Shown here: piece by piece, positions 7,109-30,139 of the stretch
Position numbering within the stretch: the first letter of the stretch is position 1
How the letters are laid out: each line of letters opens with the position of its first letter
Assembly: GCF_036013645.1 (NCBI RefSeq)
Contig: NZ_CP107869.1
Coordinates: forward strand, 5,332,001 to 5,396,000
Length of the DNA: 64,000 bases
Direction of reading: 5' to 3'
Source of the DNA: Streptomyces sp. NBC_00490
GTDB taxonomy: Bacteria; Actinomycetota; Actinomycetes; Streptomycetales; Streptomycetaceae
Notes under the pieces: model-generated
Told to the model about the DNA's origin: nothing
Seen by the model: only the letters and a program-made list of their open reading frames with translations
The model's database searches: none
Position numbers and translations under genes: made by a program

Positions 7109-7148
7109 TCAGGAGTCAGCGCGCGGGACACACACCGCAGAGCGCGGC

Positions 7149-7225
7149 GGGGCTATAGCTCAGTTGGTTAGAGCGCATCCCTGATAAGGATGAGGCCACA
7201 GGTTCAAATCCTGTTAGCCCCACCA
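7149..7225 (+). tRNA. tRNA-Ile (anticodon GAU)
   Basis: The cloverleaf is complete: acceptor GGGGCTA pairing with TAGCCCC, a D arm with AGTTGGTTA, anticodon loop CTGATAA, T loop TTCAAAT, and an encoded CCA. The 3' part from 7180 is duplicated at 17884-17927 as the attachment site of the integrated element. The gene remains intact because attL restores its 3' end. Confidence 0.97.
7180..7223 (+). other. attL of the integrated element
   Basis: A 44-base segment from the anticodon loop to the discriminator of tRNA-Ile, identical to 17884-17927. Site-specific recombination between tRNA 3' ends and attP is characteristic of pSAM2-type integrases; int lies directly beside this copy. Confidence 0.93.
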
Positions 7226-7229
7226 GCAC

Positions 7230-7263
7230 AAAGACCCCCAGGCGATCACGCTTGGGGGTCTTT
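7230..7263. terminator. bidirectional terminator between tRNA-Ile and int
   Basis: An 11-bp perfect stem, AAAGACCCCCA with TGGGGGTCTTT, and a 12-nt loop. It ends tRNA transcription on the plus strand and int transcription on the minus strand. Confidence 0.85.
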
Positions 7264-7280
7264 GACATCTACGGCTGACA

Positions 7281-8438
7281 TCAGCCGATGAGTGGATCTT
7301 CCAGAAGTTCGGCGAGCATGCCCACCGCTTCCCGTTCACTGTCGCCCACGACGTGCGTGTAGACGTCCATGGTCATGCTGATCTGGCTGTGCCGGAGGAT
7401 CGCCTGAGCGACCTTGGGATGAACCTTCAGGAAGGCCAGCAGCGTCCCGCAGGTGTGCCGAGCAAGGCGGACCGTGATCCGGCGGACGCCAGCGCGTTTG
7501 ACGAGCCGATCGAAGGTGCGGGAGAAACCCACCGGGTCGATCATGCCGCCGTGTTCGGAGGAGAAGATCAGATCATGGTCCGGCTCCTGCGACCAGTTCT
7601 CACCGGCGATCTTCCGTTCCAGCGCTTGCAACTCACGCCGCTCATCCAGGACACGGGCGCAGAACTCAGGGAGCGGGAGCACGGCCTGTGAGGACTCCGT
7701 CTTGAGGTCCTTGAGGACCAGGCCCACGCCCTTGACCCGCTGCACCTGCTTGACCGGGATGAAACGGCCGGCATCGAAGTCGATGTCCTGCCAGCGCAGC
7801 CCGAGCACCTCGCTGCGGCGGAGGCCGAGGACCAAGACGAGGACGCAGGCCGCGTAGAGCCGGTGGGCACGCACCGAGCGCAGGAAGGCGATCGCTTCCC
7901 GAGCGTTCCACGCTGTCCCCCTGTCCTTGCTGACCTTGGGCATGTCGACCAGGAGAGCGACGTTCCGCGTGATCAGTTCCTCGCGCATGGCCCGGTTGAG
8001 GGCGTTGCGGAGCACGCGCAGAACCTCGAAGCGGGCCGAGGCGCCAACCTTCTCCCGGGTCAGCGTGGCCATGAACACCCGGATCTGCGCCGGGGTGAGC
8101 TTGACCAGCGGTTTCTTGCCGAGATGGGGCAGCAGGTACAGCCGCACCTTGGACTCGTACTTCACGTACGTGTTGTGCTCGCGCTCCGGAGCGATGATGT
8201 GCTCCAGCCAGTAGGCCAGCCACTCCCCGAGCGTCCAAGACCGGGAGGGCACGGGGATGCCGTTGCGCTCCTGGTCCTGAAGCTTGCCCAGCTTCTCGTT
8301 CGCTTCGTCCCAGGTTCGGCCGTATACGTACTTGCGCACCCGGTTGCCGTCCGTGTCGGTCACATACGCGGCACCCTGGTAGCGGCCGTCCGACCGTTTG
8401 GTGATCGTGCCGCCGCCGTTGGGCCGACGCTTCGCCAT
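7281..8438 (-). CDS. int: tyrosine recombinase (site-specific integrase)
   Basis: Catalyses integration and, with Xis, excision between attP and tRNA-Ile. From the ATG at 8438 it has 385 residues. The N-terminal arm-binding part (RPNGGGTITKRSDGRYQG) is followed by a core-binding SAM-like region (TLGEWLAYWLEHIIAPERE) and the catalytic domain, with Arg in GLRRSEVLGLRWQDID, the RLARHTCGTLLA box (HxxR-type region) and the nucleophile tyrosine in MTMDVYTHV. The start codon overlaps the xis stop by one base (TGATG). The upstream in-frame extension to 8504 lacks a ribosome site and would overlap xis heavily, so it was rejected. The gene ends about 60 bases from attL. Confidence 0.95.
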   Translation of the reverse strand: MAKRRPNGGGTITKRSDGRYQGAAYVTDTDGNRVRKYVYGRTWDEANEKLGKLQDQERNGIPVPSRSWTLGEWLAYWLEHIIAPEREHNTYVKYESKVRLYLLPHLGKKPLVKLTPAQIRVFMATLTREKVGASARFEVLRVLRNALNRAMREELITRNVALLVDMPKVSKDRGTAWNAREAIAFLRSVRAHRLYAACVLVLVLGLRRSEVLGLRWQDIDFDAGRFIPVKQVQRVKGVGLVLKDLKTESSQAVLPLPEFCARVLDERRELQALERKIAGENWSQEPDHDLIFSSEHGGMIDPVGFSRTFDRLVKRAGVRRITVRLARHTCGTLLAFLKVHPKVAQAILRHSQISMTMDVYTHVVGDSEREAVGMLAELLEDPLIG

Positions 8439-8622
8439 CAGGCAGCCTCCCCGATCTGGCCGACGATGAAGTCGCGCACCGCGTGGTCGGGGATGCGGCG
8501 GCATCCGTCGACCTTGATGGACACGAGGCGGTGCGTACGGATCAGGTCGTAGACCTTGGTACGGCCCACCTTCAGCCGCGCCATGACCTCAGGCACAGTC
8601 AGCAACTCCGGGGCAGCGGTGG

Positions 8623-8626
<4 letters not shown>
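8438..8626 (-). CDS. xis: excisionase / helix-turn-helix protein
   Basis: A 62-residue MerR/excisionase-type winged helix-turn-helix protein: LLTVPEVMARLKVGRTKVYDLIRTHRLVSIKVDGCRRIPDHAVRDFI. Such proteins bend attachment-site DNA and direct the integrase toward excision. It is coupled on both sides: its ATG overlaps the repSA stop (ATGA) and its stop overlaps the int start. The order repSA-xis-int matches pSAM2, where the three genes are transcribed together. Confidence 0.92.
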
Positions 8627-10107
<1,481 letters not shown>

Positions 10108-10111
10108 GCGA

Positions 10112-10345
10112 TCACTTCCTGCCGTGGGCGGGGCCGTGGTTGTCGGTGTAGTCCTCGACCAGGGCGGCCACGTCACGGGATCCGGAGGCGGTGTCGGACT
10201 GTCCGCAGCCGCCGCAGGTGTAGGAGCCGGACGGGGTGGAGGCGGTGGTGTTCCACCAGCGGGCGGGGTCGTCGTGCTTCCGGTAGATCGGTTCGGCGGC
10301 CACGTGCAGGCCCGGACGGTCGGGGGTGGGCGTGAGGTCAGACAT
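10112..10345 (-). CDS. small element protein with one CxxC pair
   Basis: A 77-residue protein from the ATG at 10345, preceded by GGGGGAGG. It contains GSYTCGGCGQSD, a single zinc-knuckle half, and ends NHGPAHGRK. It is translated immediately before repSA and overlaps the previous small gene by eight bases, so it belongs to the replication/transfer transcript. I recognise no named family; AICEs often carry such small Cys-containing proteins of unknown role. Confidence 0.7.
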   Translation of the reverse strand: MSDLTPTPDRPGLHVAAEPIYRKHDDPARWWNTTASTPSGSYTCGGCGQSDTASGSRDVAALVEDYTDNHGPAHGRK

Positions 10346-10526
10346 GAGCCGCCTCCCCCTTGGTCGCCGGGGCGCGCCGGGTGTGGCCGGTGCCCTTGCA
10401 GGTCGGGCAGGCGACGCGGAGGGTGACGCGGGAGCCGTCGTCGGCACGGTCACCAGTGGCGATGGCGACGACGGGGAAGCCGTCGCAGTAACGGCAGACA
10501 GGCGTGTTCTGGGCGTGCTGGGGCAT
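10338..10526 (-). CDS. small double-CxxC zinc-finger-like protein
   Basis: A 62-residue protein with two Cys pairs, VCRYCDG near the N-terminus and ACPTCKGTGHTRR near the C-terminus, a spacing suggestive of a zinc ribbon. The second pair resembles the CPTCKGTG repeats of DnaJ-type zinc fingers. It overlaps the next gene by eight bases. A second protein of similar type is at 12735-12908. The role is unknown; nucleic-acid or protein binding during transfer or replication is a guess. Confidence 0.72.
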   Translation of the reverse strand: MPQHAQNTPVCRYCDGFPVVAIATGDRADDGSRVTLRVACPTCKGTGHTRRAPATKGEAAHV

Positions 10527-10618
10527 GATGGGGCTTCCCTTTCGGGTCCTTTGGATCTGGAAGTGGTGCAGGCGTCCGGGGCGGCGGTTCTTTGGCGAGA
10601 GAGCCGCCCCGGGGGCCG

Positions 10619-10837
10619 TTAGCGGCGGCGGGAGTAGCCGTGGCCGGGCGGCGGGTAGGCGCTGGTGTCCCCGCAGTCGTCGGCCAGTCCCTGGGCGTTG
10701 GCGGTGGCCAGCAGCGAGCCGGCGACTACGGCGGTGAAGTCGTCGACCGAATCGCCCTTCAGGTCGACGGCGATGTCGGTGAGCATCCGCTGTGTCAGCT
10801 CACGGTCGTTGCTCTTGGGGCTGCTGAAGAGGCCCAT
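10619..10837 (-). CDS. small AYPPPGH-tail protein (copy 1)
   Basis: A 72-residue soluble protein from the ATG at 10837, with AAAGGAA upstream. It reads MGLFSSPKSNDRELTQRML and has an acidic middle region (KGDSVDDFTAVVAGSLLA); the C-terminus is SAYPPPGHGYSRRR. The tail and the VDDFT.VVAGSL segment are shared with the gene at 12914-13147, so the two are paralogues. No family name is recognised. Confidence 0.72.
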   Translation of the reverse strand: MGLFSSPKSNDRELTQRMLTDIAVDLKGDSVDDFTAVVAGSLLATANAQGLADDCGDTSAYPPPGHGYSRRR

Positions 10838-10838
10838 G

Positions 10839-11147
10839 TCAGCGGTTCCTTTCGGCGTTGAGGAGCGAGCGGAGGACGAGCGCGCACACGGCCACCGACA
10901 TGCCCGTGATGGCGACCGCGAGGAGCATGGAGACCAGGACCGCGCCGACGACGAGGACGACGGCACCACCGCCGGCCGCGAGGGCGAGCGCGCTGCCGGG
11001 GGTGAGGTGGACGACAGGCCGGTTCGAGACCGAGGCGAGCGGAGCCTGAGCGACAGGAGCCGGCGGGGCGGGGAGGTCGGAGGCCGGAAGCGGTACGGAG
11101 GCGACCTGCGGGGCGGTGTCTTGGGGCGGGTACTTCGGGGTGAGCAC
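10839..11147 (-). CDS. SpdD-like plasmid-spread membrane protein
   Basis: A 102-residue protein from GTG 11147 with AAGGAG upstream. It starts MLTPKYPP, has a Pro/Ala-rich linker, then two predicted membrane helices (LTPGSALALAAGGGAVVLVVGAV and LAVAITGMSVAVCALVL). This layout fits the SpdD-type spread proteins of Streptomyces plasmids and AICEs, thought to help intramycelial spread after conjugal entry. It lies one base from the next gene. The name is by resemblance and the role is inferred from the family. Confidence 0.75.
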   Translation of the reverse strand: MLTPKYPPQDTAPQVASVPLPASDLPAPPAPVAQAPLASVSNRPVVHLTPGSALALAAGGGAVVLVVGAVLVSMLLAVAITGMSVAVCALVLRSLLNAERNR

Positions 11148-11171
11148 GGGTGTTCTCCTTTGGGGGCCGGG

Positions 11172-11327
11172 TTACTTGACGAGGGAGTCGACGGTGGGGC
11201 TGAGGAAGCTGCCGGCGACGAGGTAGCCGCCGAGGAGGAGCAGGACGACCAGCCAGATCGGCGGGCGGGTGAGCTTGATCCCGAGGTATCCGACGACGAT
11301 CACGGCGAGCCAGAGCGGAACGTCCAT
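11172..11327 (-). CDS. small two-helix membrane protein
   Basis: A 51-residue hydrophobic protein from the ATG at 11327, preceded by GGGAGA. It has two membrane segments, WLAVIVVGYLGIKL and PIWLVVLLLLGGYLVAGSFL. It lies between the SpdD-like and the HxC-containing mobile-element protein in a closely packed transcript, so a part in plasmid spread or mating-pore function is plausible. No named family is recognised. Confidence 0.7.
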   Translation of the reverse strand: MDVPLWLAVIVVGYLGIKLTRPPIWLVVLLLLGGYLVAGSFLSPTVDSLVK

Positions 11328-11343
11328 GACGGTGATCTCCCTT

Positions 11344-11532
11344 TCAGGCCTTGCAGCGGTGGGTGTTGGCGGCGAGTTCGGCGGCGGAGCGGTCGGTGTA
11401 GTCGGCGGAGAAGCCACAGCCCGGCGCGGTGCAGGCGGCGGCGTGCTTCTCGCGGCCACGGCCGTCGTAGTAGGTGGCGACCTGCACGGGGCCGATACGG
11501 CGCTTGTCGCGGAAGCGGCGGTAGGCGGTCAC
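11344..11532 (-). CDS. mobile-element transfer protein, zinc-finger-like
   Basis: A 62-residue basic protein from GTG 11532: RRIGPVQVATYYDGRGREK, then CTAPGCGF and a terminal THRCKA, a CxxxxC...HxxC arrangement that could bind zinc. Proteins of this sequence type occur beside spd and tra genes on Streptomyces elements and are usually labelled mobile element transfer proteins. The upstream gene ends four bases before the start. Confidence 0.75.
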   Translation of the reverse strand: MTAYRRFRDKRRIGPVQVATYYDGRGREKHAAACTAPGCGFSADYTDRSAAELAANTHRCKA

Positions 11533-11536
11533 GGCG

Positions 11537-11725
11537 TCAGCCCTCCTGTCGCAGGCTGCGGCCGGGGAACTCAGCGAGGATCTGCTGAGCCGTTTTCGGG
11601 TCCGGGGTGCGGTCGGCGGCTTCTTCCGCGAGCAAGCGGGCCAGGGCCGGGCGTCCGGCGTCGGCCATCTCGCGGGCCGCGTTCACGAAGTCCTCGGGGC
11701 GCTCGAAGGGCTGCATGGTGGCCAA
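11537..11725 (-). CDS. hypothetical 62-residue element protein
   Basis: A small, mostly helical soluble protein (PEDFVNAAREMADAGRPALARLLAEEAADRT). The TTG at 11725 has AAAGGA at a suitable distance; an in-frame ATG three codons later is the alternative. It lies between SpdB2 and the zinc-finger-like protein, in the same orientation. No function is recognised. Confidence 0.6.
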   Translation of the reverse strand: MATMQPFERPEDFVNAAREMADAGRPALARLLAEEAADRTPDPKTAQQILAEFPGRSLRQEG

Positions 11726-11737
11726 CTTCTTTTCCTT

Positions 11738-12394
11738 TCAGGTGAGTTGGAGTTGTTCGGCGATTGCATGGGCCATGGGGGCGGGCAGTTGGAGCCGGGC
11801 CGACAGAGCGTCAGCGGGCATCGGGGAGCCAGTGGAAGCGTGGTGTGCGTCGGCGATCTTCCGTGCGTGATCCAGCAACGCGGCTGGAACCGCGGGCGCA
11901 TCGGCCGGGAGTGCCTGGGCTGTTGCGGGTGCCAGTTCCGGCACCGGGTCCGGGGCCGGGGCGGGGTCGTTGGCGCGGTGCATGTCGACGTCCAGCGCGG
12001 CCGGTTCATCCACAGCCTGTGTAGGAGCGGCCGGTTCGGTCGGCGAGTGCACGAGGAGGGTGCCGCCGAGGAAGGCCAGGGCAGGCCAGCCGGCCACGAG
12101 GATGCGCAGCCAGGCAGGCACGTGCTCCAGGTCGAGGAGTCCGGCGGTGGCGATGTTGGCCCCGAGCGAGGCGCACAGCGCGATCGCGAACCAGGTCCAG
12201 GCGGAACGGTCCCGGCGGGCGGTACGCAGTCGGCGCCAGGCGGCGACCAGCAGCAGATCGACCGAGACCGGATAGGCCCAGGCCTTCCATCCCGTCTGGC
12301 CGGCCGCGTAGGCCAAGTCGTGCAGGTGGGCGAAGGACAGGGCGCCGGCGATGACTGCCTGGATGAGTACGGCGTCGACGCGGAGCCCCTTCAT
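11738..12394 (-). CDS. spdB2: SpdB2-like DUF2637 membrane protein
   Basis: A 218-residue protein. The first 125 residues have four hydrophobic segments (AVIAGALSFAHLHDLAYAAGQ, AYPVSVDLLLVAAW, WTWFAIALCASLGANIA, LVAGWPALAFLGGTLL), matching DUF2637/SpdB2 proteins of Streptomyces plasmids. The rest is Pro/Ala-rich and cytoplasmic and ends in a helical stretch. SpdB2 proteins support spread of transferred DNA along hyphae, probably with TraSA. The ATG overlaps the previous gene's stop (ATGA). Confidence 0.85.
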   Translation of the reverse strand: MKGLRVDAVLIQAVIAGALSFAHLHDLAYAAGQTGWKAWAYPVSVDLLLVAAWRRLRTARRDRSAWTWFAIALCASLGANIATAGLLDLEHVPAWLRILVAGWPALAFLGGTLLVHSPTEPAAPTQAVDEPAALDVDMHRANDPAPAPDPVPELAPATAQALPADAPAVPAALLDHARKIADAHHASTGSPMPADALSARLQLPAPMAHAIAEQLQLT

Positions 12395-12663
12395 GACTGG
12401 CTCCGAGGAGCTCGCCCCAAGGCGCGGGCCACGGCATCGCAGTCGGCCGGGGTGTAGGCGGTACGTACTCCGGAGATCGACAGCCCGGCCGCCTCCGCCA
12501 GGGAAGCCAGCGTGTAGGGCCGAGGGGCGGTGAACTCCCGGGCGTAGGCCAGGTGGGCGCGGATGTGCTGGTCGATCTGGTCCCGCTGCTCTCGCAGAGC
12601 GGCGAGCTGACGAAGGAAGTCGTCCGAGGCAAGGTCGTCCAGGGCGGTCAGCGGCTCAGACAT
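12391..12663 (-). CDS. small helix-turn-helix-like protein
   Basis: A 90-residue protein from the ATG at 12663, with AAGGAACCTG upstream. A charged helical N-terminus (FLRQLAALREQRDQIDQHIRAHL) could form a coiled coil; the C-terminal half has a helix-turn-helix-like stretch (YTLASLAEAAGLSISGVRTAYT). It is coupled to spdB2 by an ATGA overlap. DNA binding is inferred from the motif. Confidence 0.7.
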   Translation of the reverse strand: MSEPLTALDDLASDDFLRQLAALREQRDQIDQHIRAHLAYAREFTAPRPYTLASLAEAAGLSISGVRTAYTPADCDAVARALGRAPRSQS

Positions 12664-12734
12664 GACAGGTTCCTTCCTGAGATTGGGCCAGGAGCGGGCG
12701 GGGATCATGTCCGGCCGCCCGGCCCCGGCGAGCT

Positions 12735-12908
12735 TCAGTCGGTGGCTTCGCCGGAGCCCAGGCAGGCCAGGCAGATACCGGTCTGTTGGCCGACAGGGCG
12801 GCGCTTACGGCCGATGTGGACGGTGCGGGAGACCTCGCCGGAGCCCTTACAGGTCGAGCACTTCGGCGGTTCGGCCGGCGCGGGCGCGGTGGTCTTGGGC
12901 GCGGCCAT
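12735..12908 (-). CDS. small double-CxxC zinc-finger-like protein (second)
   Basis: A 57-residue protein from the ATG at 12908. Two Cys pairs, PKCSTCKGSGEVSR and ICLACLGSGEATD, match the CxxCxGxG pattern of DnaJ zinc centres, with a basic segment (IGRKRRPVG) between. It is close in kind to the product of 10338-10526. It ends shortly before the small HTH-like gene. Function is unknown. Confidence 0.72.
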   Translation of the reverse strand: MAAPKTTAPAPAEPPKCSTCKGSGEVSRTVHIGRKRRPVGQQTGICLACLGSGEATD

Positions 12909-12913
12909 GGCGG

Positions 12914-13147
12914 TCAGTCCTCGTCGAGGCGGGGGTAGTCGTGACCGGGCGGCGGGTAGGCACCCACGTGGTGGGCACGGCACTCGGCTTCCAGAGCACC
13001 GGCTATGACCTCGGTGAAGTCGTCCGCGGCCAGGCCGAAGTGGAGACCGTTCCTCAAGCTGTCGCACAGGTAGCCCAGCCGGCCGTTGTCGTCGCGCTCG
13101 TGCGGGGTGAAGCCGTACTCGTCTCGCTCGATTCGGTGCTGGTCCAT
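12914..13147 (-). CDS. small AYPPPGH-tail protein (copy 2)
   Basis: A 77-residue protein. The N-terminus is charged (MDQHRIERDEYGFTPHERDD); the second half, LAADDFTEVIAGALEAECRAH, and the tail GAYPPPGHDYPRLDED align with the product at 10619-10837. It follows traSA in the transcript and precedes the second zinc-finger-like gene by five bases. No family name is recognised. Confidence 0.7.
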   Translation of the reverse strand: MDQHRIERDEYGFTPHERDDNGRLGYLCDSLRNGLHFGLAADDFTEVIAGALEAECRAHHVGAYPPPGHDYPRLDED

Positions 13148-13159
13148 GCCGATGTCTCC

Positions 13160-14479
13160 CTACTTGACCAGTGACGCAGCGGTGGCGGACGGTGCCAGGA
13201 CGTGAGGCCGGAAGGCGTCGAGGAAGGGCAGGTCCGGCACCAGGTGAGCGAAGTCCCGGCAGGTGGCGGCGACTTCATCGCGGGAGGTCTCAGGGGTGCG
13301 GATGCGGCTCCAACCGCCGGAGGCATCGGTAGCCACGGCCGTACCGGGTCGATTCGCGGGGATCACGCACGCGGCCGGCACGGCAGTCGGAGCCACGTCC
13401 TTCAGCCCCATCTCGGCGGTTTCCTTGTCGTTGACCCGGTGCACCACCCGGCCCGTGAGCTGAGCACGGAGCATGGTGGCGCCCTTGCCCAGGTCGGAAC
13501 CGAAGCGCTGACCGCAGATCTCCAGATAGATGCCGACCGCACGGGCCATCTGCGCCAGCCGGATCAAAGCGGTGACGATCCGGGTGCGGCGGTCCTCATC
13601 CTCTTTGCGGGAGATCAGGAAGAGTTCTGCGATCTCGTCGACCAGCACCACAATCGGTGCCGGCCGCAGGTCCGCCGGAAGCTCCCAGATGTCCGAGACG
13701 CCGTGCAGGTTCAGCAGGTCGAAACGGTCTTCCATCTCAGCGACCAGCACATCGGCCAGCGAGGCGGCATCATCCGGATTGGTCGCCAGCGCTGACAGGC
13801 GAGGAGCGAACACGGACTGTTCCACCCCGCGCTTGCAGTCCATCCCCACCAAAGCGACCGGCAGTTGAGCCAGCCCCTTGATCAGGTTGCGCTGATACAT
13901 GGACTTGCCCGAGGAGTTGGCCCCCAGGGTGAGCGCCATCGGGGCTTTGAGGTAGTCCCGCTCGAACGCGGTCCCGTCATCGCGCAGCGCGACCGGCACG
14001 ACCATGTCGTGAGGCTGTGCCTTACGCGGCATCCGCACCCGACGCAGCACGTCATACCCGGTCATCCGCAGTTCGACGAATCCCGGCTTGGTCGCCACGA
14101 TCCGAATCGCGTGGACACCCCAGGCGTGCCGAAGACGCTCCGTCGAGGCGATCATGTCGGCGGGCTCCAGACCAGCCGGAAGCCGCAGCGTCACCCGCAG
14201 CCCCGTCGAGGTGGGCCGCACCCGGCGGATCTTCGGTGCGACCGGCTGCACCTCACGACGGGCCACGTTGCGAGCCATGAACGCCCGCAGGCCGGACGGC
14301 TGCACCGTCAGACCACACACGTCCATCGTCGAGCGGTAGGAGAACGTGAACCGGCCCCACGTGGCGGGCAGACCGACCAACGACCAGTACGCGCGAGGGG
14401 CGCGGTACTTCGCGTAGCCGAGCCCACCGGCACCGGCCGCAGCGCCGCCCAGCTCGAACCAGGTAGCGACGTCGGCCAT
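13160..14479 (-). CDS. traSA: TraSA-type FtsK/SpoIIIE DNA translocase
   Basis: The conjugation motor of AICEs, which moves double-stranded DNA between hyphae as a hexameric ATPase. It has 439 residues. There is a short hydrophobic N-terminal segment (ELGGAAAGAGGLGYA), an intermediate region, Walker A GANSSGKS at about residue 190, and Walker B IVVLVDEIAEL at about residue 275. The sequence ICGQRFGSDLGKGATMLRAQLTGRVVHRV is typical of plasmid Tra ATPases. It lies two bases after the SCO3933-type gene. Unregulated tra is harmful in this family, which explains the KorSA-type operators at the head of this operon. Confidence 0.93.
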   Translation of the reverse strand: MADVATWFELGGAAAGAGGLGYAKYRAPRAYWSLVGLPATWGRFTFSYRSTMDVCGLTVQPSGLRAFMARNVARREVQPVAPKIRRVRPTSTGLRVTLRLPAGLEPADMIASTERLRHAWGVHAIRIVATKPGFVELRMTGYDVLRRVRMPRKAQPHDMVVPVALRDDGTAFERDYLKAPMALTLGANSSGKSMYQRNLIKGLAQLPVALVGMDCKRGVEQSVFAPRLSALATNPDDAASLADVLVAEMEDRFDLLNLHGVSDIWELPADLRPAPIVVLVDEIAELFLISRKEDEDRRTRIVTALIRLAQMARAVGIYLEICGQRFGSDLGKGATMLRAQLTGRVVHRVNDKETAEMGLKDVAPTAVPAACVIPANRPGTAVATDASGGWSRIRTPETSRDEVAATCRDFAHLVPDLPFLDAFRPHVLAPSATAASLVK

Positions 14480-14481
14480 GA

Positions 14482-14811
14482 TCAGGCCCCCAGCGGGGTG
14501 ATCGCGACCGCACTGAACGCGATACCGGTGCGCTTCTCACCCTTGATCACGTTGTCCCAGTCACGCGCCTTCAGGCCGATGACCTTGACCGGCATCCCCG
14601 GCACGAGGCCCTCGGGGTAACCGTTCTCCGGGACCGAGACCTTGAGAAGGTTCCCCTCCCCCTCGTCCGAGACCAGCAGGCCCACGGTCGACATGGGCTG
14701 ACCCTCCTGGTTCACGGCCCGCTCACCGGTCTGGAAGTTCTTCACCTTCGGTTCGGGCGCAGTCGCCACAAACACCACCGCAGTCGAAGTGTCGATCTTG
14801 AACGACGGCAC
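14482..14811 (-). CDS. SCO3933-family regulatory protein
   Basis: A 109-residue protein from GTG 14811, preceded by GAGGAG. It is predicted all-beta (FKIDTSTAVVFVATAPEPKVK, TVGLLVSDEGEGNLLKVSVPENGYPEGLVPGMPVKVIGL), compatible with an OB-like fold. It is the first gene of the long leftward transcript running through traSA. Homologues in this position on AICEs are called SCO3933-family regulatory proteins; the mechanism is not established. The promoter upstream carries two copies of the 16-bp operator. Confidence 0.8.
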   Translation of the reverse strand: MPSFKIDTSTAVVFVATAPEPKVKNFQTGERAVNQEGQPMSTVGLLVSDEGEGNLLKVSVPENGYPEGLVPGMPVKVIGLKARDWDNVIKGEKRTGIAFSAVAITPLGA

Positions 14812-14842
14812 TGCATCTCCTCTAACAGAGTGGATCTCCTGC

Positions 14843-14858
14843 ACTCATGTACAGGAGT
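14843..14858 (-). promoter_or_regulatory. KorSA-type operator, tra promoter proximal
   Basis: ACTCATGTACAGGAGT, an imperfect inverted repeat around TGTACA, identical to the copy at 14879-14894. It sits between the tra promoter and the first gene. Confidence 0.75.
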
Positions 14859-14868
14859 TACGTGTAGA

Positions 14869-14897
14869 AGAGTGCCTAACTCATGTACAGGAGTCAA
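14869..14897 (-). promoter_or_regulatory. promoter of the tra operon
   Basis: Read on the minus strand, TTGACT (14897-14892) and CACTCT (14874-14869) are separated by 17 bases. The upstream operator copy covers the -35 and spacer; the second copy lies just downstream of the expected start point. This is a classic arrangement for repression. Confidence 0.65.
14879..14894 (-). promoter_or_regulatory. KorSA-type operator, tra promoter distal
   Basis: ACTCATGTACAGGAGT, overlapping the -35 element of the tra promoter. It is 36 bases (centre to centre) from the other copy. Confidence 0.75.
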
Positions 14898-14945
14898 GCG
14901 CTATGGAGGTGCCGGCCGCGAAGTGGCTTGAAAGAAGCGGGCCCG

Positions 14946-15725
14946 TCAGTCCCTTGCAGCGAAGCGGTAGTCCAAAACGAACTGGTCAGCAGCCATGATG
15001 GTGTCGCAGACCTCGACCACTCGTTCATCGTCTGAAAAGGCACTGCGGACCAGGTGGATGACCGGGGCGCCGGGGCTCAGGGCAAGGGCGGTCGCCTCTG
15101 CCTTGGTGGCCAGTCGTGCCCTCACGGTCTCGATGAACTCCGCCAACATGTGACCGTGCTCTTCGAGGCGAGCGTAGATACCACCGCCGCCCGGGTTCTC
15201 GGCGAACATCTCGGGGATGTCCTTCACCACGTCCCATGGCAGGTAGGACGTTGCCTCTTCGGTGGGGATGCCATCGCGAAAGTACCTGCGCTTGCGGGCT
15301 AGAACCTTGGTTCCGGTCGCGACGTTCAATCGCTCCGCGATCTCGGCTGGCGCGTCGACAGGGCCGACGTACAGCACGTTCACGGAGGGAGTGCCGCCAG
15401 ACTGTTCAGCTTCCGCGAGATAGGCAGCCTTGCCGGCCTTGCGGTGCGCCCGACGAAAACGATCGGACGACTTCCGCTGAACAGGGGGCCGCGAGCGGAC
15501 GAAGGAACCACGCCCGTGATGGGTCTCGATCAACTGCGCCGCGCGCAGCTCGGCAACCGCCTTGCGTACGGTCCCTGAGGCGACGCTGTACCGAGTCATC
15601 AGCTCGGTCTCGCTGGGTACCGGAGACCCAGGCTTCAATGCCCCTGATCTGATCTGTGCTGCGAGATCATCCGCGATCTGGAGGTACTTCGCCTTGGCCG
15701 AAGATGTCACGTCGCCTGTCGCCAT
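14946..15725 (-). CDS. korSA: GntR/HutC-family repressor (KorSA-like)
   Basis: A 259-residue regulator. The N-terminal winged helix-turn-helix (YLQIADDLAAQIRSGALKPGSPVPSETELMTRYSVASGTVRKAVAELRAAQLI) and the C-terminal UTRA ligand domain (from about residue 95) define the HutC group of GntR proteins. In pSAM2 KorSA represses its own gene and pra, keeping the element integrated. Here a copy of the shared operator overlaps the divergent korSA/Nudix promoters, and two more control the tra operon, so autoregulation and repression of transfer are inferred. The start at ATG 15725 has GGGAGA upstream. Confidence 0.88.
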   Translation of the reverse strand: MATGDVTSSAKAKYLQIADDLAAQIRSGALKPGSPVPSETELMTRYSVASGTVRKAVAELRAAQLIETHHGRGSFVRSRPPVQRKSSDRFRRAHRKAGKAAYLAEAEQSGGTPSVNVLYVGPVDAPAEIAERLNVATGTKVLARKRRYFRDGIPTEEATSYLPWDVVKDIPEMFAENPGGGGIYARLEEHGHMLAEFIETVRARLATKAEATALALSPGAPVIHLVRSAFSDDERVVEVCDTIMAADQFVLDYRFAARD

Positions 15726-15745
15726 AGTCCTACAGTCTCCCCTAT

Positions 15746-15761
15746 TCTCCTGTACATGAGT
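15746..15761. promoter_or_regulatory. KorSA-type operator at the divergent promoter
   Basis: TCTCCTGTACATGAGT, the reverse complement of the tra-promoter operators with one mismatch. It covers the start codon of the Nudix gene and the space after its -10 element, and lies 20 bases before the korSA start. Confidence 0.75.
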
Positions 15762-16217
15762 AACAGCCGCCCACAGAACCCGTCAACGCCGCTCCACTCG
15801 GTGTCCGTGGCGGGAGTCGTTGTGCGCGAGGACGGGCGTGTTTTGGTGATCCGTCGTGCCGACAACGGCAAGTGGGAGCCGCCCGGCGGGGTGCTTGAAC
15901 GTACGGAAGCCATCGAAGATGGGGTCTGTCGCGAGGTGTACGAAGAGACCGGGATCAAGGTGCGCGTAGAGCGCTTGACCGGCGTCTACAAGAACATGAC
16001 AGTCGGCGTTGTCGCCCTGGTATTCAGGTGTCAGCCCGAAGGCGGTCACGAACAGCTCTCGGACGAGTCGACCGCTGTTGCATGGCTCACCCCGGACGAG
16101 GCAGTAGCGGCGATGAGTGAGGTCTACGCGGTTCGCATCACGGACGCTTTGCGCGACGAGGCGCCGCACATCCGGACGCATGACGGCCGCAAGCTGACAC
16201 CGCTGGTAGGCAACTGA
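15756..16217 (+). CDS. Nudix hydrolase (Pif-like)
   Basis: A 153-residue protein with a complete Nudix box at about residues 50-72 (GGVLERTEAIEDGVCREVYEETGI; pattern Gx5Ex7REx2EExG all present). Nudix enzymes hydrolyse nucleoside diphosphates linked to other groups; the substrate is unknown. In pSAM2 the pif gene, which blocks re-entry of the same element (transfer immunity), encodes a Nudix-motif protein next to korSA, so this is probably its counterpart. The ATG has no ribosome site; TATTCT seven bases upstream looks like a -10 box, implying a leaderless transcript. Confidence 0.82.
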   Translation: MSNSRPQNPSTPLHSVSVAGVVVREDGRVLVIRRADNGKWEPPGGVLERTEAIEDGVCREVYEETGIKVRVERLTGVYKNMTVGVVALVFRCQPEGGHEQLSDESTAVAWLTPDEAVAAMSEVYAVRITDALRDEAPHIRTHDGRKLTPLVGN

Positions 16218-16267
16218 CCTTCGGCCGGGGATCCCGACCTGTTACAGGTTTCTCTACCTCATCAAGG

Positions 16268-16285
16268 GCCCGCGCAAGCGCGGGC
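16268..16285 (+). terminator. hairpin after the Nudix gene
   Basis: GCCCGCGC and GCGCGGGC form an 8-bp stem about 50 bases after the Nudix stop. No T run follows. Confidence 0.5.
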
Positions 16286-16486
16286 TGGCCCCTTGGGCCT
16301 GGCCCCTCTGCGCCTTCGGCGCCGGGGCCTGGCCCCTGGGGCCGCAAGCATGTTACGGCCCGGACGGTAGAGCCCTAGACGGGCAAGCCACGGTCAAGAC
16401 GGATGCCTCCGGCGGGGGATCGGCCGGCACCGGGGTGGAGGGGGCGCCGTACGCGACTGCGGGTTCGTAGTGGCGTACGCGGTAGG

Positions 16487-16636
16487 GCTTCCATCCCGTC
16501 CACCATCGACCCAGGCAGAGCCGAGCAGACGCGGCCCATGGCGTCCAGGTCGTTCGTACAGTGGCGCGCTCCACCTGGACGCCATGAACCACGCCCGCTC
16601 CACGGTGTGTGGGTCGACGGCGGACGGGATGGAAGC
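16487..16636. repeat. 150-nt nested inverted repeat
   Basis: The outer arms are 27 nt (16487-16513 and 16610-16636) and match in 25 positions. Inside them 16537-16550 (CATGGCGTCCAGGT) and 16573-16586 form a perfect 14-bp stem with a 22-nt loop. The mirror symmetry of two nested stems indicates selection for a folded single strand. Candidates are a single-strand initiation site like sti/ssi of Streptomyces rolling-circle plasmids, or a structured RNA. Confidence 0.8.
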
Positions 16637-17275
16637 TGGGGTGAGTGGTGGGTGTTATGGGTGGCCTGTACCGCGGGGAGTAGGGACGCGGCACAGGCCC
16701 ATGGTTCTCAGTGGTGGTGATTCCACCAGTAGAGCGCCAGCGCTCCGATCCCACTCAGACTGGCCTTCACGCCGACGCGCATGAGTTCATCCGTAGCGGA
16801 GTTCATGAGGCGGCGGAAATGATGTCGTGCCGACCGTTGTTCCAGTTCAGCCCGTATGCGCCTTCGCGAGCGGGCAGGCTGAAGAGCCTTCGCAGTGGGG
16901 CATTGTCGGACCCGGCACCTACACTTCCTGTAGCTGGGAATCGTGGCCTCCTTTGGTTGACGTCCCAGATGGTGATGGCGGCCTCCTGCGTAGGACCAGG
17001 GGGCCGCCGCCATTTCTGACGGAGGCCTGTGACCGCGCTAGAACAGTCTGACGCACGGCACTGACAGTAGGAGGCTCTAGGGGTCAAGCCAGTTCGCACA
17101 ATTGTGCATGTACTGGATGAAGCGCGACAGGCGACTTGGGCCTCGGGCACTGCACCTCTGCCCTTGACGTCGATCCTCTTGGCCTTCCCTGCTAGGTCCA
17201 CCACGACGGATATGACTGCGTCAGGGAGAGCCTTTGTACGAGTCGAGGCACAGCAACTTCTGCCTTGAATTTGCC

Positions 17276-17281
17276 GCTAGC
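17276..17281. repeat. GCTAGC, one flank of the dnaA-like insert
   Basis: GCTAGC at 17276-17281 and again at 17452-17457 brackets 170 bases, of which 17320-17451 encode the DnaA-like residues. Both copies are in the same phase of the surrounding gene (Ala-Ser), consistent with a target duplication or microhomology-mediated insertion. Confidence 0.55.
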
Positions 17282-17298
17282 GTGCAGTTCGGTCATGG

Positions 17299-17592
17299 CT
17301 ACGTCAGTGCAGAACAGGAGGTCGACTCCTTGTTCGCGAGGAACTGGATGTCGTCGACGGGGAAGATGCCCATCTCGCGGTACCGCTTGCGGAAGCTGTC
17401 GCCCTTGCCGTCGTGGATGGAGTTGGCGAACTCGTTGGTGAACTCCTCCTGGCTAGCTTTGTGTTCGACGATGACCGACATGCTTGACCTGAGGTTCTCG
17501 TCGTCGGAGTTGTCGATGATCTCCCACAGGCAGTGCAGCAGGACAGGGACGCCGTTGCCCTCACTGGCCAGCTCCCTCGAGTCGGCACGCAC
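17299..17592 (-). CDS. 97-residue chimeric ORF with DnaA-like and ParE-like segments
   Basis: This frame starts at GTG 17592 and has no strong ribosome site. At residues 19-33 LLHCLWEIIDNSDDE matches the topoisomerase IV ParE N-terminal motif (M/L-HCLWEIIDNSVDE) in about 13 of 15 positions. At residues 49-90, EEFTNEFANSIHDGKGDSF, FRKRYREMG and VDDIQFLANKEST match the DnaA AAA+ Walker B region with few changes; the usual hydrophobic pair before VDD has become FP. Codon third positions are GC-rich as in real genes. Whether it is expressed is unknown; it may be only a relic inside the broken gene. Confidence 0.45.
   Translation of the reverse strand: MRADSRELASEGNGVPVLLHCLWEIIDNSDDENLRSSMSVIVEHKASQEEFTNEFANSIHDGKGDSFRKRYREMGIFPVDDIQFLANKESTSCSALT
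17452..17457. repeat. GCTAGC, other flank of the dnaA-like insert
   Basis: The second copy of the hexamer flanking the dnaA-like segment; see 17276-17281. Confidence 0.55.
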
Positions 17593-17633
17593 CGCGAAGG
17601 CCTGGAGGCCTTGACTAGGCGCAATCGAATGGA

Positions 17634-17649
17634 TGTTTCACGTGAAACA
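17634..17649. promoter_or_regulatory. parS centromere site (exact)
   Basis: TGTTTCACGTGAAACA, a perfect 16-bp palindrome matching the ParB-binding parS consensus. It lies inside the integrated element. The stop codon of the 44-codon ORF (17638-17772) is within it. Confidence 0.88.
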
Positions 17650-17883
17650 CGACTCGGAGATGCGGCGGACGGTGATCGCTTCGATCTCGTGCAGGACCCA
17701 GTCGAAGAGGTACGTGAAGTGCTCGTTACACACAGTCTTCGTGCCGTCAAGCGGCTCACTGGTGTCTGACATCAGAGGCTGACACCAACAGGGACGGACA
17801 GGCGCGCAACGAGACGGACTCCGGCAACCAGTCCGACGCGGCCCGGCTGCGGCCTTATAGGTGCACCGGACGGCAGGGATCGA

Positions 17884-17927
17884 CCTGATAAGGATGAGGC
17901 CACAGGTTCAAATCCTGTTAGCCCCAC
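17884..17927 (+). other. attR of the integrated element
   Basis: A 44-base duplicate of the tRNA-Ile 3' part (7180-7223). It cannot form a tRNA because the 5' half is absent. Confidence 0.93.
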
Positions 17928-18000
17928 AGACAAAGATCGAGAAGTCGGGTGTCTCCCCAGTGGGAGGCACCCGTTCTTCGTTGTGGCAGCAGCAAGATGA

Positions 18001-18026
18001 CCCCCCGGTCGATAAAGACCGGGGGG
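18001..18026. terminator. terminator after attR
   Basis: CCCCCCGGTC and GACCGGGGGG form a 10-bp perfect stem with loop GATAAA, followed by TTT. Before integration this would have been downstream of tRNA-Ile. Confidence 0.85.
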
Positions 18027-18100
18027 TTTCGCTTGTCTGTACGTCCATGCAGCGGGCGGGTACGCAAGTTCGCCGTTACATCGGGGAAGGGACGGCGCCG

Positions 18101-18454
18101 TCAGCGCTGGAGGGGTGTGGCCGGCTCTGCGGCCGAGTCGTCACAGGGGGGCGTGGCCCCCTCGGCCCCCTCGGCGTCCTCCGTGTCCGTGGGCGGGCGG
18201 TGGCGGCAGCTGGGGGTCTTGCCGTGGGCCTCGGCTCGGATGCGCTGCTTCATCGTGGGGGGCAGGGCCCTGGTGGCGGACCAGGGCCAGAGGGATGGCG
18301 CCGGTGTCTTGGCCTCGGTGCTGCTGTTGCGGGTCGGCTCGGTCTGCGGTACGGCCGCGGCGGCGGTCGTGGTGATGAGTCCGAGCGTCGTGCACAGCGC
18401 CAGGAGGGCGGTGACGATGGCGGTCCACAGGTTCATGACCTTGTTCTGGGCCAT
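18101..18454 (-). CDS. small secreted or anchored protein, DUF6344-like
   Basis: A 117-residue protein from the ATG at 18454, preceded by GAGGGG. The N-terminus MAQNKVMNLWTAIVTALLALCTTLGLITTTAAAA is a signal peptide or membrane anchor. A conserved-looking WPWSATRALPPTMKQRIRAEAHG segment follows, and the tail is acidic and disordered. It resembles the Streptomyces DUF6344 family; no function is known. It lies just outside attR and is convergent with the terminator. Confidence 0.65.
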   Translation of the reverse strand: MAQNKVMNLWTAIVTALLALCTTLGLITTTAAAAVPQTEPTRNSSTEAKTPAPSLWPWSATRALPPTMKQRIRAEAHGKTPSCRHRPPTDTEDAEGAEGATPPCDDSAAEPATPLQR

Positions 18455-18792
18455 GGCCCCTCACTTTCGGGTTGGGCGATTTGCGTACTTTCCTCATGAT
18501 GTGTATGGGGGCGGCGAAATCATGGACCGACGCCCGTGGCGCGTCGATGTTCAGATGAACACCACTCGGATGGGTGCAAGAACCCTGAAAAGTGGAGGAG
18601 AGTGGAGGAGAAGGCTCAAAGTGACCGTCCGTGGAGGTGTGATCACCCTCCGATCGGAGTGGTGTCATCCGCTTCTACTGCGGTGTCCAGGGCGGAAGTT
18701 GAGGGGCTGACGCAGGTCACCGATCGGTATCGGTCGGTGTGTATAGTCGGGCGCCAGAGGTCCCCTACGTCAAGGAAAGACGAGGTCGCACG
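18455..18792. other. intergenic region before DLW-39 gene
   Basis: A 338-base gap between divergent small genes. TATAGT at 18742 is a possible -10 element for the DLW-39 gene. Nothing else is recognised. Confidence 0.5.
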
Positions 18793-18921
18793 GTGAAGAA
18801 GCTTCTCCTGGTCGCACTGGCCGCCATCGGCGGGCTCCTCGTGTACCGCCAGATCCAGGCGGATCGCGCCGAGCAGGATCTGTGGACGGAGGCGACCGAC
18901 TCCGTGCCCACGGGTTCGTGA
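18793..18921 (+). CDS. DLW-39 family peptide
   Basis: A 42-residue peptide from GTG 18793 with AAGGAAAGACGAGG upstream. The hydrophobic segment KKLLLVALAAIGGLLVYRQIQ is followed by AEQDLWTEATDSVPTGS, containing the DLW that names this family of very short actinobacterial membrane proteins. Function is unknown. It is conserved near gyrA and tRNA genes in Streptomyces. Confidence 0.85.
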   Translation: MKKLLLVALAAIGGLLVYRQIQADRAEQDLWTEATDSVPTGS

Positions 18922-19035
18922 GTACCGACATTCGGTTCTGAACAGACCCCGGCCGCCTCGCGGTCGGGGTTTTGTGTTGCGCGAGACGCAGCCGGGCAGG
19001 ATGAGCCACGATCAGGCGACGGCGAGGGGTGGCGC

Positions 19036-20328
19036 GTGATGGGGCGGCGTACGGTGCGGTGGCGCGGCGTGTGCGCGGCTGTCGTGGGAATGGCCCTGGC
19101 CGCCCTGCTGCCGGGACAGACGGCCCTCGCCGCGAGCACGCCCACTCCCTCGTATGCGTTCGCCCCCGACGCCCGGCCGGTCACTGGCTCCGCGACCTCC
19201 TCGGACGCCGAGTCCCTCGACATCGGCGAGACGTACCGGAGCACCCTCCCCGCGGGCGGCAAGCTCTACTACCGCCTCGTACTCGACAAGACGTCGGACA
19301 CGTACGTCTCCGTCACGGCCGTCCCGCGCGCGGGCACGACGGTCTCCACCGGCGGCGGCATCAGGGTGTCCCTGCAGGACGCCGACAGCCGCTCCTGCTC
19401 CTTCGAGAGCGCCTACTTCAAAGCGAGCCGCAGTCCGCGGCCGATCGTCGCCTGGGGAGCGAGAGAGGCCTTCTCCCAGCGCGCCCTGTGCAAGGGTGCC
19501 GGCGTGTACTACGTGCGCGTGGAGCGCATCGACGGCACGGACGTATCGCCCGGCGAATGGGAGCTGGAGCTCGCTCCGGTGTCGGAGCCGGGCCTGGAGC
19601 GGGCCGAGGGGACGAGCGCGCCGCAGAGCTGGAACTCCACGCCCCCACAGCCCCCGACCGGTCAGGCCGTACGACGTCCGGGCGGCGCGGGCTTCGACGA
19701 GGCCGTGCCGGTGAAGGAGGGGGTCTGGAGCGCCGATGTGGCGCCCGGGCAGACGCTCTTCTACAAAGTGCCGGTCGACTGGGGGCAGCAGCTCCACGTC
19801 ACCGCCGAACTGGGCAGCACGACTCGCGGCCGTTATGTGGCCGGCGCGCTCATCACGTCGCTGTACAACCCCGCACGCATGCCCGTCGACGACGTGGCCA
19901 TCGGCTACAACGGCACCCAGAAGACGGACTCCCTCGACCCCTTGGCGCCGGTCGACTACACCAACCGCTACGACTCCTCCCGCCAGGTCAGAGCGATGCG
20001 GTTCGCCGGCTCGTACTACCTCGCCCTCCATCTCTCGTCGGCGATGGCCGAGAAGTACGGCGACAAGCCGTTCGGCGTGACGCTGCGGGTGGGGATCGAC
20101 GGCACGGCCGAGACGGCACCCGCCTACGCGGCGCCGTCCAAGCCGCAGGGCCTCTTCGAGGTGTCGGCACAGGACCGGGCGGCAGCGGCAGCGGGCGGGG
20201 GCGCGGGAGGCGACGCGCTGATGAAGGTGGTCGCCGTGGCGGGCATCGGAGGCGGGAGCCTGGTGCTGGTGGTACTGGGGGCGTGGACGGTGGTGGCCCG
20301 GCGGAGGGCGGCCGGGCTCGTCGGGTAG
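19036..20328 (+). CDS. secreted protein anchored by a C-terminal helix
   Basis: A 430-residue exported protein. The signal peptide is MMGRRTVRWRGVCAAVVGMA..ALLPGQTALAA; the mature part contains two beta-rich halves with GETYRSTLPAGGKLYYRL and AVPVKEGVWSADVAPGQTLFYKVPVDW, which look like a repeated domain. A C-terminal helix (VVAVAGIGGGSLVLVVLGAWTVV) and RRR tail anchor it in the membrane. GTG 19036 and ATG 19039 are both possible starts after GAGGGG. No family name is assigned; the overall plan resembles actinomycete envelope proteins. Confidence 0.78.
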   Translation: MMGRRTVRWRGVCAAVVGMALAALLPGQTALAASTPTPSYAFAPDARPVTGSATSSDAESLDIGETYRSTLPAGGKLYYRLVLDKTSDTYVSVTAVPRAGTTVSTGGGIRVSLQDADSRSCSFESAYFKASRSPRPIVAWGAREAFSQRALCKGAGVYYVRVERIDGTDVSPGEWELELAPVSEPGLERAEGTSAPQSWNSTPPQPPTGQAVRRPGGAGFDEAVPVKEGVWSADVAPGQTLFYKVPVDWGQQLHVTAELGSTTRGRYVAGALITSLYNPARMPVDDVAIGYNGTQKTDSLDPLAPVDYTNRYDSSRQVRAMRFAGSYYLALHLSSAMAEKYGDKPFGVTLRVGIDGTAETAPAYAAPSKPQGLFEVSAQDRAAAAAGGGAGGDALMKVVAVAGIGGGSLVLVVLGAWTVVARRRAAGLVG

Positions 20329-26696: not shown

Positions 26697-27476
26697 TTGA
26701 GCAATTCTGCCGACTCCCCCCAGGCCGGATCCAGCCCTGTCCGCGGACGGAGATTCCGGCCCGTGCGGCTGCTCACGGTGGCCGTCTTCGCTCTCGCGGG
26801 CCTCATCTTCTTCACCAGCTTCAATACGGCCAAGGGCACCAATATCCGTACGGATGCCTCACTGCTGAAGCTCTCCGACCTCATCCTGGAGCGCAGCCAC
26901 AAGAACGGTCAGCTGGATGAGACCACCGGGACGCTCAGGGACGACGTCGAGGCGCTGGCCGAGCGGGACGACGGCAGCACCAAGGCCGAGGACGACAAGC
27001 TGGCGGCGCTGGAGAAGAAGGCGGGGACGCAGAAGCTGAGGGGCGAGGCGATCTCCGTCACGCTCAACGACGCCCCGCCGGACGCCACCGCCAAGCTCCC
27101 CGGCTATCCCGAGCCGCAGCCCGATTACCTGGTCATCCACCAGCAGGACCTGCAGGCCGTGGTGAACGCGATGTGGCAGGCCGGCGCCCAGGGCATCAAG
27201 GTCATGGACCAGCGGCTGATCTCCACCAGCGCCGTGCGCTGCGTGGGCAACACGCTCATCCTCCAGGGCCGGGTCTACTCACCGCCGTACAAGATCACGG
27301 CGATCGGGGACCCGGAGAAGCTGCGCACGTCGCTCGCGGCGAGCCCGGCGATCCAGAACTACATGGTCTACGTCAACGTCTACGGACTCGGCTGGAAAGT
27401 CGAGAACGAAGGGACGGTGACTCTGCCCGGCTACTCGGGCACAGTGGATCTGCAGTACGCCAAGCCTGTGGAGTAG
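26697..27476 (+). CDS. DUF881 family protein
   Basis: A 259-residue membrane-anchored protein from TTG 26697 with AAGGAG upstream. One N-terminal helix (LLTVAVFALAGLIFFTSF) is followed by a coiled-coil region (residues 65-115) and the extracellular DUF881 domain (GEAISVTLNDAPP, LVIHQQDLQAVVNAMWQAGAQGIKVMDQRLISTSAVRCVGNTLILQGRVYSPPY). The family is conserved next to crgA and in firmicute division regions; the role is not established. The sortase gene follows after 17 bases. Confidence 0.88.
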   Translation: MSNSADSPQAGSSPVRGRRFRPVRLLTVAVFALAGLIFFTSFNTAKGTNIRTDASLLKLSDLILERSHKNGQLDETTGTLRDDVEALAERDDGSTKAEDDKLAALEKKAGTQKLRGEAISVTLNDAPPDATAKLPGYPEPQPDYLVIHQQDLQAVVNAMWQAGAQGIKVMDQRLISTSAVRCVGNTLILQGRVYSPPYKITAIGDPEKLRTSLAASPAIQNYMVYVNVYGLGWKVENEGTVTLPGYSGTVDLQYAKPVE

Positions 27477-27493
27477 GCCTTCTGGAGCCGCCG

Positions 27494-30126: not shown

Positions 30127-30139
30127 GGGCAGATGAACA

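Follow-up and report, generated by a model that had tools for sequence, protein, structure and literature searches.

Why does an integrative element of Streptomyces sp. NBC_00490 carry a short piece of dnaA near its right end, and does that piece have a function there? We examined a 64-kb window (the whole stretch of DNA analysed, G000:C1:5332001-5396000) of this 10.8-Mb genome, in which a preliminary description had proposed a dnaA-like fragment inserted between two GCTAGC repeats. Positions are those of the window unless a contig (C1) is named.

A dnaA piece close to the right end of a pSAM2-type element

Judged by its gene content, the element is an actinomycete integrative and conjugative element (AICE) of the pSAM2 type, inserted in tRNA-Ile and predicted to be mobile (Table 1). 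It shares with pSAM2-type AICEs a tRNA-3′ att repeat, integrase, RepSA, FtsK-like protein, GntR regulator and NUDIX gene, but adds a replication-gene mosaic and a parS site close to attR. Comparison with its own genome revealed a direct att repeat of 44 identical bp (7180-7223 and 17884-17927). The host’s own dnaA (C1:5326438-5328393) lies about 11 kb to the left of tRNA-Ile.

Table 1. Features of the element and of the mosaic near its right end.
Feature	Position	Strand	Remarks
tRNA-Ile(GAT), attachment gene	7149..7225	+	tRNA 3′ part repeated at far end of element
Tyrosine integrase	7281..8504	-	PF00589 over Pfam cut-off
RepSA-type replication initiator	8623..10176	-	PF20199, 486 bits
FtsK/SpoIIIE-type protein, presumed transfer protein	13160..14479	-	PF01580 over cut-off
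GntR/UTRA regulator	14946..15725	-	Pfam
NUDIX hydrolase	15756..16217	+	Pfam
Small ORF beyond dnaN-upstream segment, start uncertain	16708..17013	-	16711-16975 under coding constraint
dnaA-dnaN intergenic segment, 48 bp	17041..17088	-	43/48 bases match own genome, where it lies 95-142 bp upstream of dnaN
Weak second parE-like motif	17267..17297	-	‘MTELHASGKF’ vs parE ‘MTKLHAGGKF’; 27/32 columns, E 0.002
GCTAGC copy	17276..17281	.	Absent from both homologous DNA copies read
97-aa ORF, parE piece read into dnaA piece	17299..17592	-	No sign of constraint
dnaA fragment, DnaA residues about 382-426	17321..17449	-	121/129 identical to own dnaA; PF00308
GCTAGC copy	17452..17457	.	Absent from both homologous DNA copies read
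parE (topoisomerase IV subunit B) fragment, ‘LLHCLWEIIDNS’	17488..17542	-	55 bp, 87% to own parE at C1:7388274
Predicted parS, perfect 16-bp palindrome TGTTTCACGTGAAACA	17635..17650	.	Exact match to consensus

A whole-genome search matched the dnaA piece to C1:5327586-5327714 in the host’s own dnaA (E 9.8e-51). At the protein level it matches DnaA residues 382-426 at 84%, which we take to be the part of DnaA that ends in Walker B. The piece scores 41.3 bits against Bac_DnaA (Pfam accession PF00308, cut-off 23) over profile positions 71-115 of 162. It differs from chromosomal DnaA in covering 45 of the 162 profile positions and in lacking both Walker A and the C-terminal domain; a profile search of the ORF found no match to the C-terminal DNA-binding domain (Pfam accession PF08299). 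Comparison with DnaA and with the host gene thus bears out the proposal of a core replication gene fragment on a mobile element. The second full-length DnaA genes of genomes G069 and G196 were considered as a source and rejected, as they have about 79% DNA identity to dnaA (676 bp) and the piece has 94% to chromosomal dnaA.

The whole element gave 19 matches in its own genome (40 of 540 first-look candidates scored). Two are self-matches (the element and its inverted stretch), three lie in dnaA, parE and the dnaN upstream region, and one is the att repeat; of the rest, twelve fall at 6.82, 9.99 and 5.21 Mb, and one, at C1:1139190-1139253 (64 bp, 78%), is weak. The three places with the twelve matches are presumed to be kin elements or their remnants. 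The dnaA piece is absent from three other presumed AICE loci of this genome. Elsewhere in the element, an inverted repeat (16487-16665, 73%) has a 90% copy at C1:9987390-9987558, and an Rfam search of 16600-18000 gave no family above the gathering score.

Pieces of other replication genes surround the dnaA segment

The flanks of the dnaA piece had been read as one uninterrupted host ORF. Our comparisons do not bear this out: the left flank is parE-derived (87% over 55 bp) and the right flank is weakly parE-like. The parE and dnaN-upstream pieces came out of own-genome searches with 17452-17800, with 16960-17281 and with the entire element. The flanks are thus replication-gene pieces too, and these, the parS site and the dnaN-upstream segment had gone unmentioned. 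Pieces were named by reading open frames with known motifs, and plasmid genes that match the same parE, dnaE and dnaX stretches are annotated likewise. On S. atratus plasmids, genes that bear the annotation topoisomerase IV subunit B match a 371-bp stretch of the host’s own parE. The ‘MTKLHAGGKF’ type of parE motif is strong in the plasmids pFP11 and pNBC_01750. A gyrA origin guessed by eye for ‘FDWVLHEIEAI’ was dropped when tblastn gave no match at E 0.05. The 48-bp dnaN-upstream segment also occurs in the dnaA-dnaN regions of other genomes. The parS consensus used is that of a table in PMC7022226.

The small ORF has no Pfam match. Between it and the dnaN-type segment lies a hairpin, of which 70 of 71 columns are identical in a Streptomyces resistomycificus copy described below. 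In pNBC_01750, a small ORF related to 16711-16975 (at about 10030-10230) follows a similar dnaN-type segment. The dnaN-type segment with its hairpin and the small ORF look maintained, the former perhaps as a promoter for the latter, a role that is predicted. The RecA-NDp/PafBC promoter consensus is TTGTCRGTG-N8-TANNNT, and a candidate of this kind, CTGTCAGTG-N8-CAGACT, was picked out by eye. RecA-NDp promoters exist in Streptomyces according to PMC5087735 and PMC8223512.

The mosaic recurs, whole or in part, in two other Streptomyces species

We searched 392 genomes of the genus (own included) with 17450-17930, scoring two candidates per genome. Every genome matched, mostly in the att stretch alone among the matches listed; beyond the own copy, the one long match among these was 452 bp at 85% in S. 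resistomycificus DSM 40133 (G343). This copy aligns over 782 bp at 84.5% and holds the parE, dnaA and dnaN-upstream pieces in the same order as here, with a 12-bp deletion in the dnaA piece. The copy in S. paradoxus DSM 43350, at a locus near tRNA-Gly genes, aligns over 535 columns at 79.6%. It has parS and the parE piece, and its dnaA piece agrees with dnaA at 131 of 138 bases; the dnaN-upstream match is absent from it. The parS site is perfect in S. paradoxus and matches at 14 of 16 positions in S. resistomycificus. The same parE-dnaA junction is found in two proteins, P0005 from a JGI metagenome and P0009 from S. paradoxus. At least 12 loci matched the pattern; of the 12 listed, two are those of S. 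resistomycificus and S. paradoxus, and ten contain long parE genes. The junctions that the preliminary description had suggested seeking in related elements are therefore present in these two species, but 28 other attR-like loci compared (about 3 kb each) are without the dnaA piece.

Identity to the S. resistomycificus copy varies along the mosaic. From attR inwards, it is 86.5% on the attR side (251 columns), 79.3% between parS and parE (87), 90.8% in parE (87), 85.6% in dnaA (118, 11 of them gapped), 75.9% after dnaA (54), 91.2% in the next part (137), 91.7% in the dnaN segment (48), 98.6% in the hairpin (71) and 93.4% in the small ORF (259). By eye, the dnaA pieces here and in S. paradoxus have one change in common, at the first base of the codon after GAGTTC; none was seen in common with the S. 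resistomycificus piece. The dnaA piece appears to be older than the split of the three copies and to have started as nearly unaltered dnaA.

Base changes in the dnaA pieces

Changes were counted against a consensus of the host’s own and 21 other chromosomal dnaA genes (21 of 29 loci, ungapped across the whole stretch), with every base change scored singly. The counts at codon positions 1/2/3 are 3/4/1 for this element, 6/4/1 for S. resistomycificus and 4/1/2 for S. paradoxus. Over the same stretch, chromosomal dnaA genes vary at third positions only (0, 0 and 19 of 66). The small ORF served as a control: 14 of the 17 differences from S. resistomycificus in 16711-16975 are at third positions.

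Synonymous changes number 2 of 8 in this element, 1 of 11 in S. resistomycificus and 2 of 7 in S. paradoxus. Together these make 5 of 26, against an expected share of 0.20-0.21, 26 changes giving little power. The dnaA piece of this parE-dnaA family thus appears to have changed like neutral DNA, with no purifying selection detected at that power. Other dnaA pieces have 7 of 11 (pNBC_01750), 2 of 4 (G237), 5 of 16 (G207), 4 of 17 (G067), 4 of 8 (G343, contig C10) and 4 of 24 (pFP11), and all nine pieces tested have 31 of 106 (expected 0.19-0.21). The high share in pNBC_01750 and C10 may reflect constraint or ordinary variation of the source species.

The dnaA segment is probably a relic

We consider it likely that the dnaA segment is an inherited, non-functional relic within a mosaic of replication-gene pieces. 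A relic was among the options offered earlier, and the neutral pattern of change and the junctions shared with S. resistomycificus and S. paradoxus agree with it. This reading is supported by the sequence origin of the pieces, by their same order in S. resistomycificus and by the parS-parE-dnaA arrangement in S. paradoxus. An ancestor of the pSAM2-type element, or of its present end piece, would have acquired a parE/dnaA/dnaN-upstream mosaic beside parS, its pieces presumably joined by illegitimate recombination. The dnaA piece would now make no useful product, and the GCTAGC pair would have arisen later through point changes.

Several observations count against a relic. First, the searched elements hold more replication-gene company than a random relic predicts. 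Second, the dnaA frame is open in all three DNA copies read. Finally, composites of the plasmid type, described next, keep the dnaA part better than the rest. A relic alone would be of modest interest; the notable part is the replication-gene company in elements chosen for a dnaA piece.

Related composites on plasmids and chromosomes

A plasmid search with 17000-17930 returned seven records: the NBC_01750 plasmid and pFP11 (dnaA pieces), Nonomuraea, Nocardia and Tsukamurella records (long dnaA), one with the att stretch alone and one with a parE match over a whole 371-bp query. Among 295 genomes, a 69-residue DnaA stretch had at least one match in 293 and a second match in eight. Four of the 295 (G000, G067, G207 and G237) hold sub-gene dnaA pieces away from dnaA. 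The remaining second matches are one in a rearranged stretch beside the own dnaA of G063 and long second DnaA ORFs in G016, G069 and G196.

At the G063 dnaA locus, pieces are inverted and duplicated (locus positions 7043-7736), which may be an assembly error. The long second DnaA proteins (locus coordinates 8597-10543 in G069, 9310-11211 in G196 and 8995-10869 in G016) have AAA+ and C-terminal parts after an N-terminal part that looks coiled-coil-like by eye; a Pfam search of this N-terminal part from G069 gave no match over the cut-off.

Judged by their junctions, the composites that hold dnaA pieces are of at least three builds. Besides the parE-dnaA type, one build is common to G207, G237 and pNBC_01750: dnaA to residue ~426-437, then dnaA ~618-651, then dnaE joined (by eye) at the dnaA stop codon. 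The first span covers DnaA residues 378-436 in pNBC_01750 and 380-426 in G207, and begins at 401 in G237. These composites share part of the same DnaA stretch with the mosaic studied here, and pNBC_01750 has further features in common with it, namely parE pieces and a dnaN-type segment together with a hairpin and a related small ORF; they differ in keeping the dnaA 3′ end and in lacking the parE-dnaA junction. Protein P0004 has the same build judging by its residues.

A further build, in pFP11 and in proteins P0007 and P0013, is of the dnaE-dnaA type. The pFP11 ‘DnaA/Hda family protein’ (WP_011265234.1) resembles our ORF in that a short part of DnaA (379-421) belongs to a composite, parE and dnaX pieces lying some 1.5 kb from it, but its dnaA is joined to dnaE rather than parE and a dnaN-upstream piece is absent at E 1e-3. 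Relatives of P0007 or P0005 were not found in viral contigs. The plasmid pFP11 reportedly has its own paper, by Zhang et al. in 2008; its replication is dealt with in PMC3583192. G343 contig C10 carries a longer, degraded dnaA joined to dnaE, and the G067 dnaA piece adjoins a stretch that by eye resembles the attR side of this element.

We compared parts of both plasmids with the genome that contains our window. For the pFP11 region 27000-35159 (8.2 of 35.2 kb; 40 of 519 candidates scored), the nine matches were to dnaA, dnaX (2), dnaE (2 loci), parE (2) and the dnaA and parE pieces of the element studied here. The pNBC_01750 region 7300-20000 (12.7 of 54.4 kb; 40 of 444 candidates scored) gave 16: dnaA (2), dnaE (2 loci), parE (2), the dnaN upstream region (E 8e-4), three pieces of the element studied here and six others, all of which overlap its annotated recombinase, adenylate kinase or Tn3 transposase genes. 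The G237 composite matched dnaA (2), dnaE and three other loci of its genome, two with transposase-like frames by eye, and gave six further weak matches of 25-54 bp, one of them itself. Against G343 C10, the dnaA part is 92% identical (177 bp) and the rest 77% (1030) in pNBC_01750; in G207 these values are 84% (141) and 76% (1195).

Because the queries were the DnaA stretch or proteins holding it, the dnaA stretch is in all composites by construction. The dnaE, dnaX, parE, dnaN-upstream and dnaA 3′-end pieces lay outside those queries, save for a parE part in three and a dnaE part in one. The whole-DnaA plasmid search covered the best 60 of 266 records.

Pieces of dnaE and dnaX also occur apart from these composites. 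In a comparable plasmid search with dnaE, five Streptomyces records reached 84% or more where no gene is listed (Sge12, S. yangpuensis, NBC_01281, NBC_01546 and NBC_01324); other Streptomyces dnaE matches on plasmids are at 72-77% and are mostly annotated dnaE. The presence of dnaE on Streptomyces plasmids is not unusual in itself, as many carry an annotated, more distant dnaE. The longer dnaE pieces without listed genes, on the plasmids of NBC_01281, Sge12, S. yangpuensis and NBC_01546, form four sets, three in permuted order and one scrambled. An S. zaomyceticus plasmid has a dnaX piece without a listed gene (245 columns, 82%) beside transposase genes (locus positions 5001-5244). These five plasmids were picked for high identity without a listed gene, from the best 30 of 218 records and from 24 of 24. 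The host’s own chromosome end (C1:10561226-10564004) holds two long dnaE pieces, 98.9% and 99.6% identical to its own dnaE.

As control queries against plasmids (near-mode) we used the 18-kb dnaA-gyrA region and 25 kb of other chromosome. In Streptomyces records the matches were mostly 584-1948 bp long and involved gyrB, gnd, pknB, an ATP-binding protein, an oxidoreductase and others; several of the records are unannotated. The four short matches comprised 57 bp inside an annotated gndA, two stretches with no listed gene (48 bp of gnd in NBC_01237 and 72 bp in NBC_00299) and the 48-bp att stretch (NBC_01445). Short non-replication matches therefore do occur. Since the control searches missed the known dnaA piece of pNBC_01750, they are informative for longer pieces only.

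Could the pieces act on host replication?

Eukaryotic Pack-MULEs and Helitrons capture gene fragments, and the mosaic resembles them in joining short pieces of several host genes within a mobile element, but the pieces found here come from replication genes. In titles and the openings of abstracts from the open-access literature, we found no account of such replication-gene pieces in Streptomyces elements, which is weak evidence of absence.

One broader reading, which we think unlikely, is that cassettes of replisome-gene pieces are shared among Streptomyces mobile elements and influence host replication, or did so in the past, either as mini-proteins or as nucleic acid with an antisense or decoy role; this window would then hold a decaying copy. 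We assume such a cassette to comprise pieces of dnaX, of dnaA (the stretch ending in Walker B), of dnaE (active site) and of parE (ATP site), plus a dnaN promoter and, in the parE-dnaA family, parS. If function underlies the cassettes, they would be a so far unseen route for mobile elements to touch host replication; if not, a capture process favouring replication genes would be likewise new.

Another reading, in our view quite improbable, holds that the mosaic is functional as DNA or RNA: a dnaA/dnaE/dnaX/parE transcript, or its antisense, would act on host replication mRNAs, or the DNA would be a decoy, to the benefit of the element. Consistent with it, the chromosome-like pieces that belong neither to annotated genes nor to presumed kin elements in three elements (two compared in part) come from replication genes or their upstream regions, the detected pieces share one orientation in this element and in pFP11, and plasmid-type composites conserve the dnaA part better than the remainder. 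Yet between this element and S. resistomycificus the dnaA piece diverges about as much as its flanks, copies carry deletions, only 4 of 295 genomes have pieces of this kind, and the transposase-like piece in the G237 composite indicates that replication genes are not the only ones represented.

It is very doubtful that the element makes a chimeric mini-protein which carries the DnaA segment leading up to and including Walker B, binds DnaA and restrains initiation during the element’s own replication. An open frame of 97 aa here and one of 74 aa in pFP11 (annotated DnaA/Hda) would suit such a protein, as would the related short proteins P0007 and P0013, but the DnaA stretch they have in common is partly a matter of construction, being the query. 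Change in the parE-dnaA family looks neutral, and its codon-position pattern gives no sign of the coding constraint that a decoy peptide, as proposed earlier, would call for. The frame that runs into the dnaA piece also varies (the parE frame here, another in P0005 and P0009), frame breaks occur in pNBC_01750 and G207, and the changes in the pFP11 piece, 20 non-synonymous and 4 synonymous, are in the proportion expected in the absence of constraint.

GCTAGC repeats are unlikely to mark an insertion

The preliminary description had the dnaA piece inserted between GCTAGC repeats, from a small circle formed between GAGGAGTTC repeats and reopened, with QEEF at the start and KEST at the end as its trace. 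Both copies of GCTAGC are present, they are the only two in the 64-kb window, and both stand at the dnaA piece, which would fit a recent dnaA circle insertion or transposition-like event with target repeats. We nevertheless hold such an event to be exceedingly unlikely. In S. resistomycificus and S. paradoxus this dnaA piece is present with neither repeat: the two positions read GCGAGC and ACTAAC in the former and GTCAGC and AATCAC in the latter. Insertion with target duplication was rejected on this ground, direct repeats being missing at the dnaA piece of both species. QEEF is missing from the other copies as well; they read SSEEF or SSEEL, and SSEEF is the chromosomal DnaA sequence, so the notion of a reopened circle falls away. 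The flanks are themselves mosaic pieces, and the copies read, a non-exhaustive set, showed no empty site.

GCTAGC is a common cloning site, which would suit an assembly or cloning artefact, but to this we give practically no credence: the mosaic recurs in S. resistomycificus and partly in S. paradoxus, both independent isolates, and in the metagenome protein P0005, and eight changes separate the piece from the host’s own dnaA. In 2000 first-order Markov simulations of the element, GCTAGC occurred 1.8 times on average, with a pair within 200 bp in 5.4% of runs. Deleting the segment with one GCTAGC copy does rejoin the ORF in frame, as had been claimed, the 176 bases agreeing with the frames.
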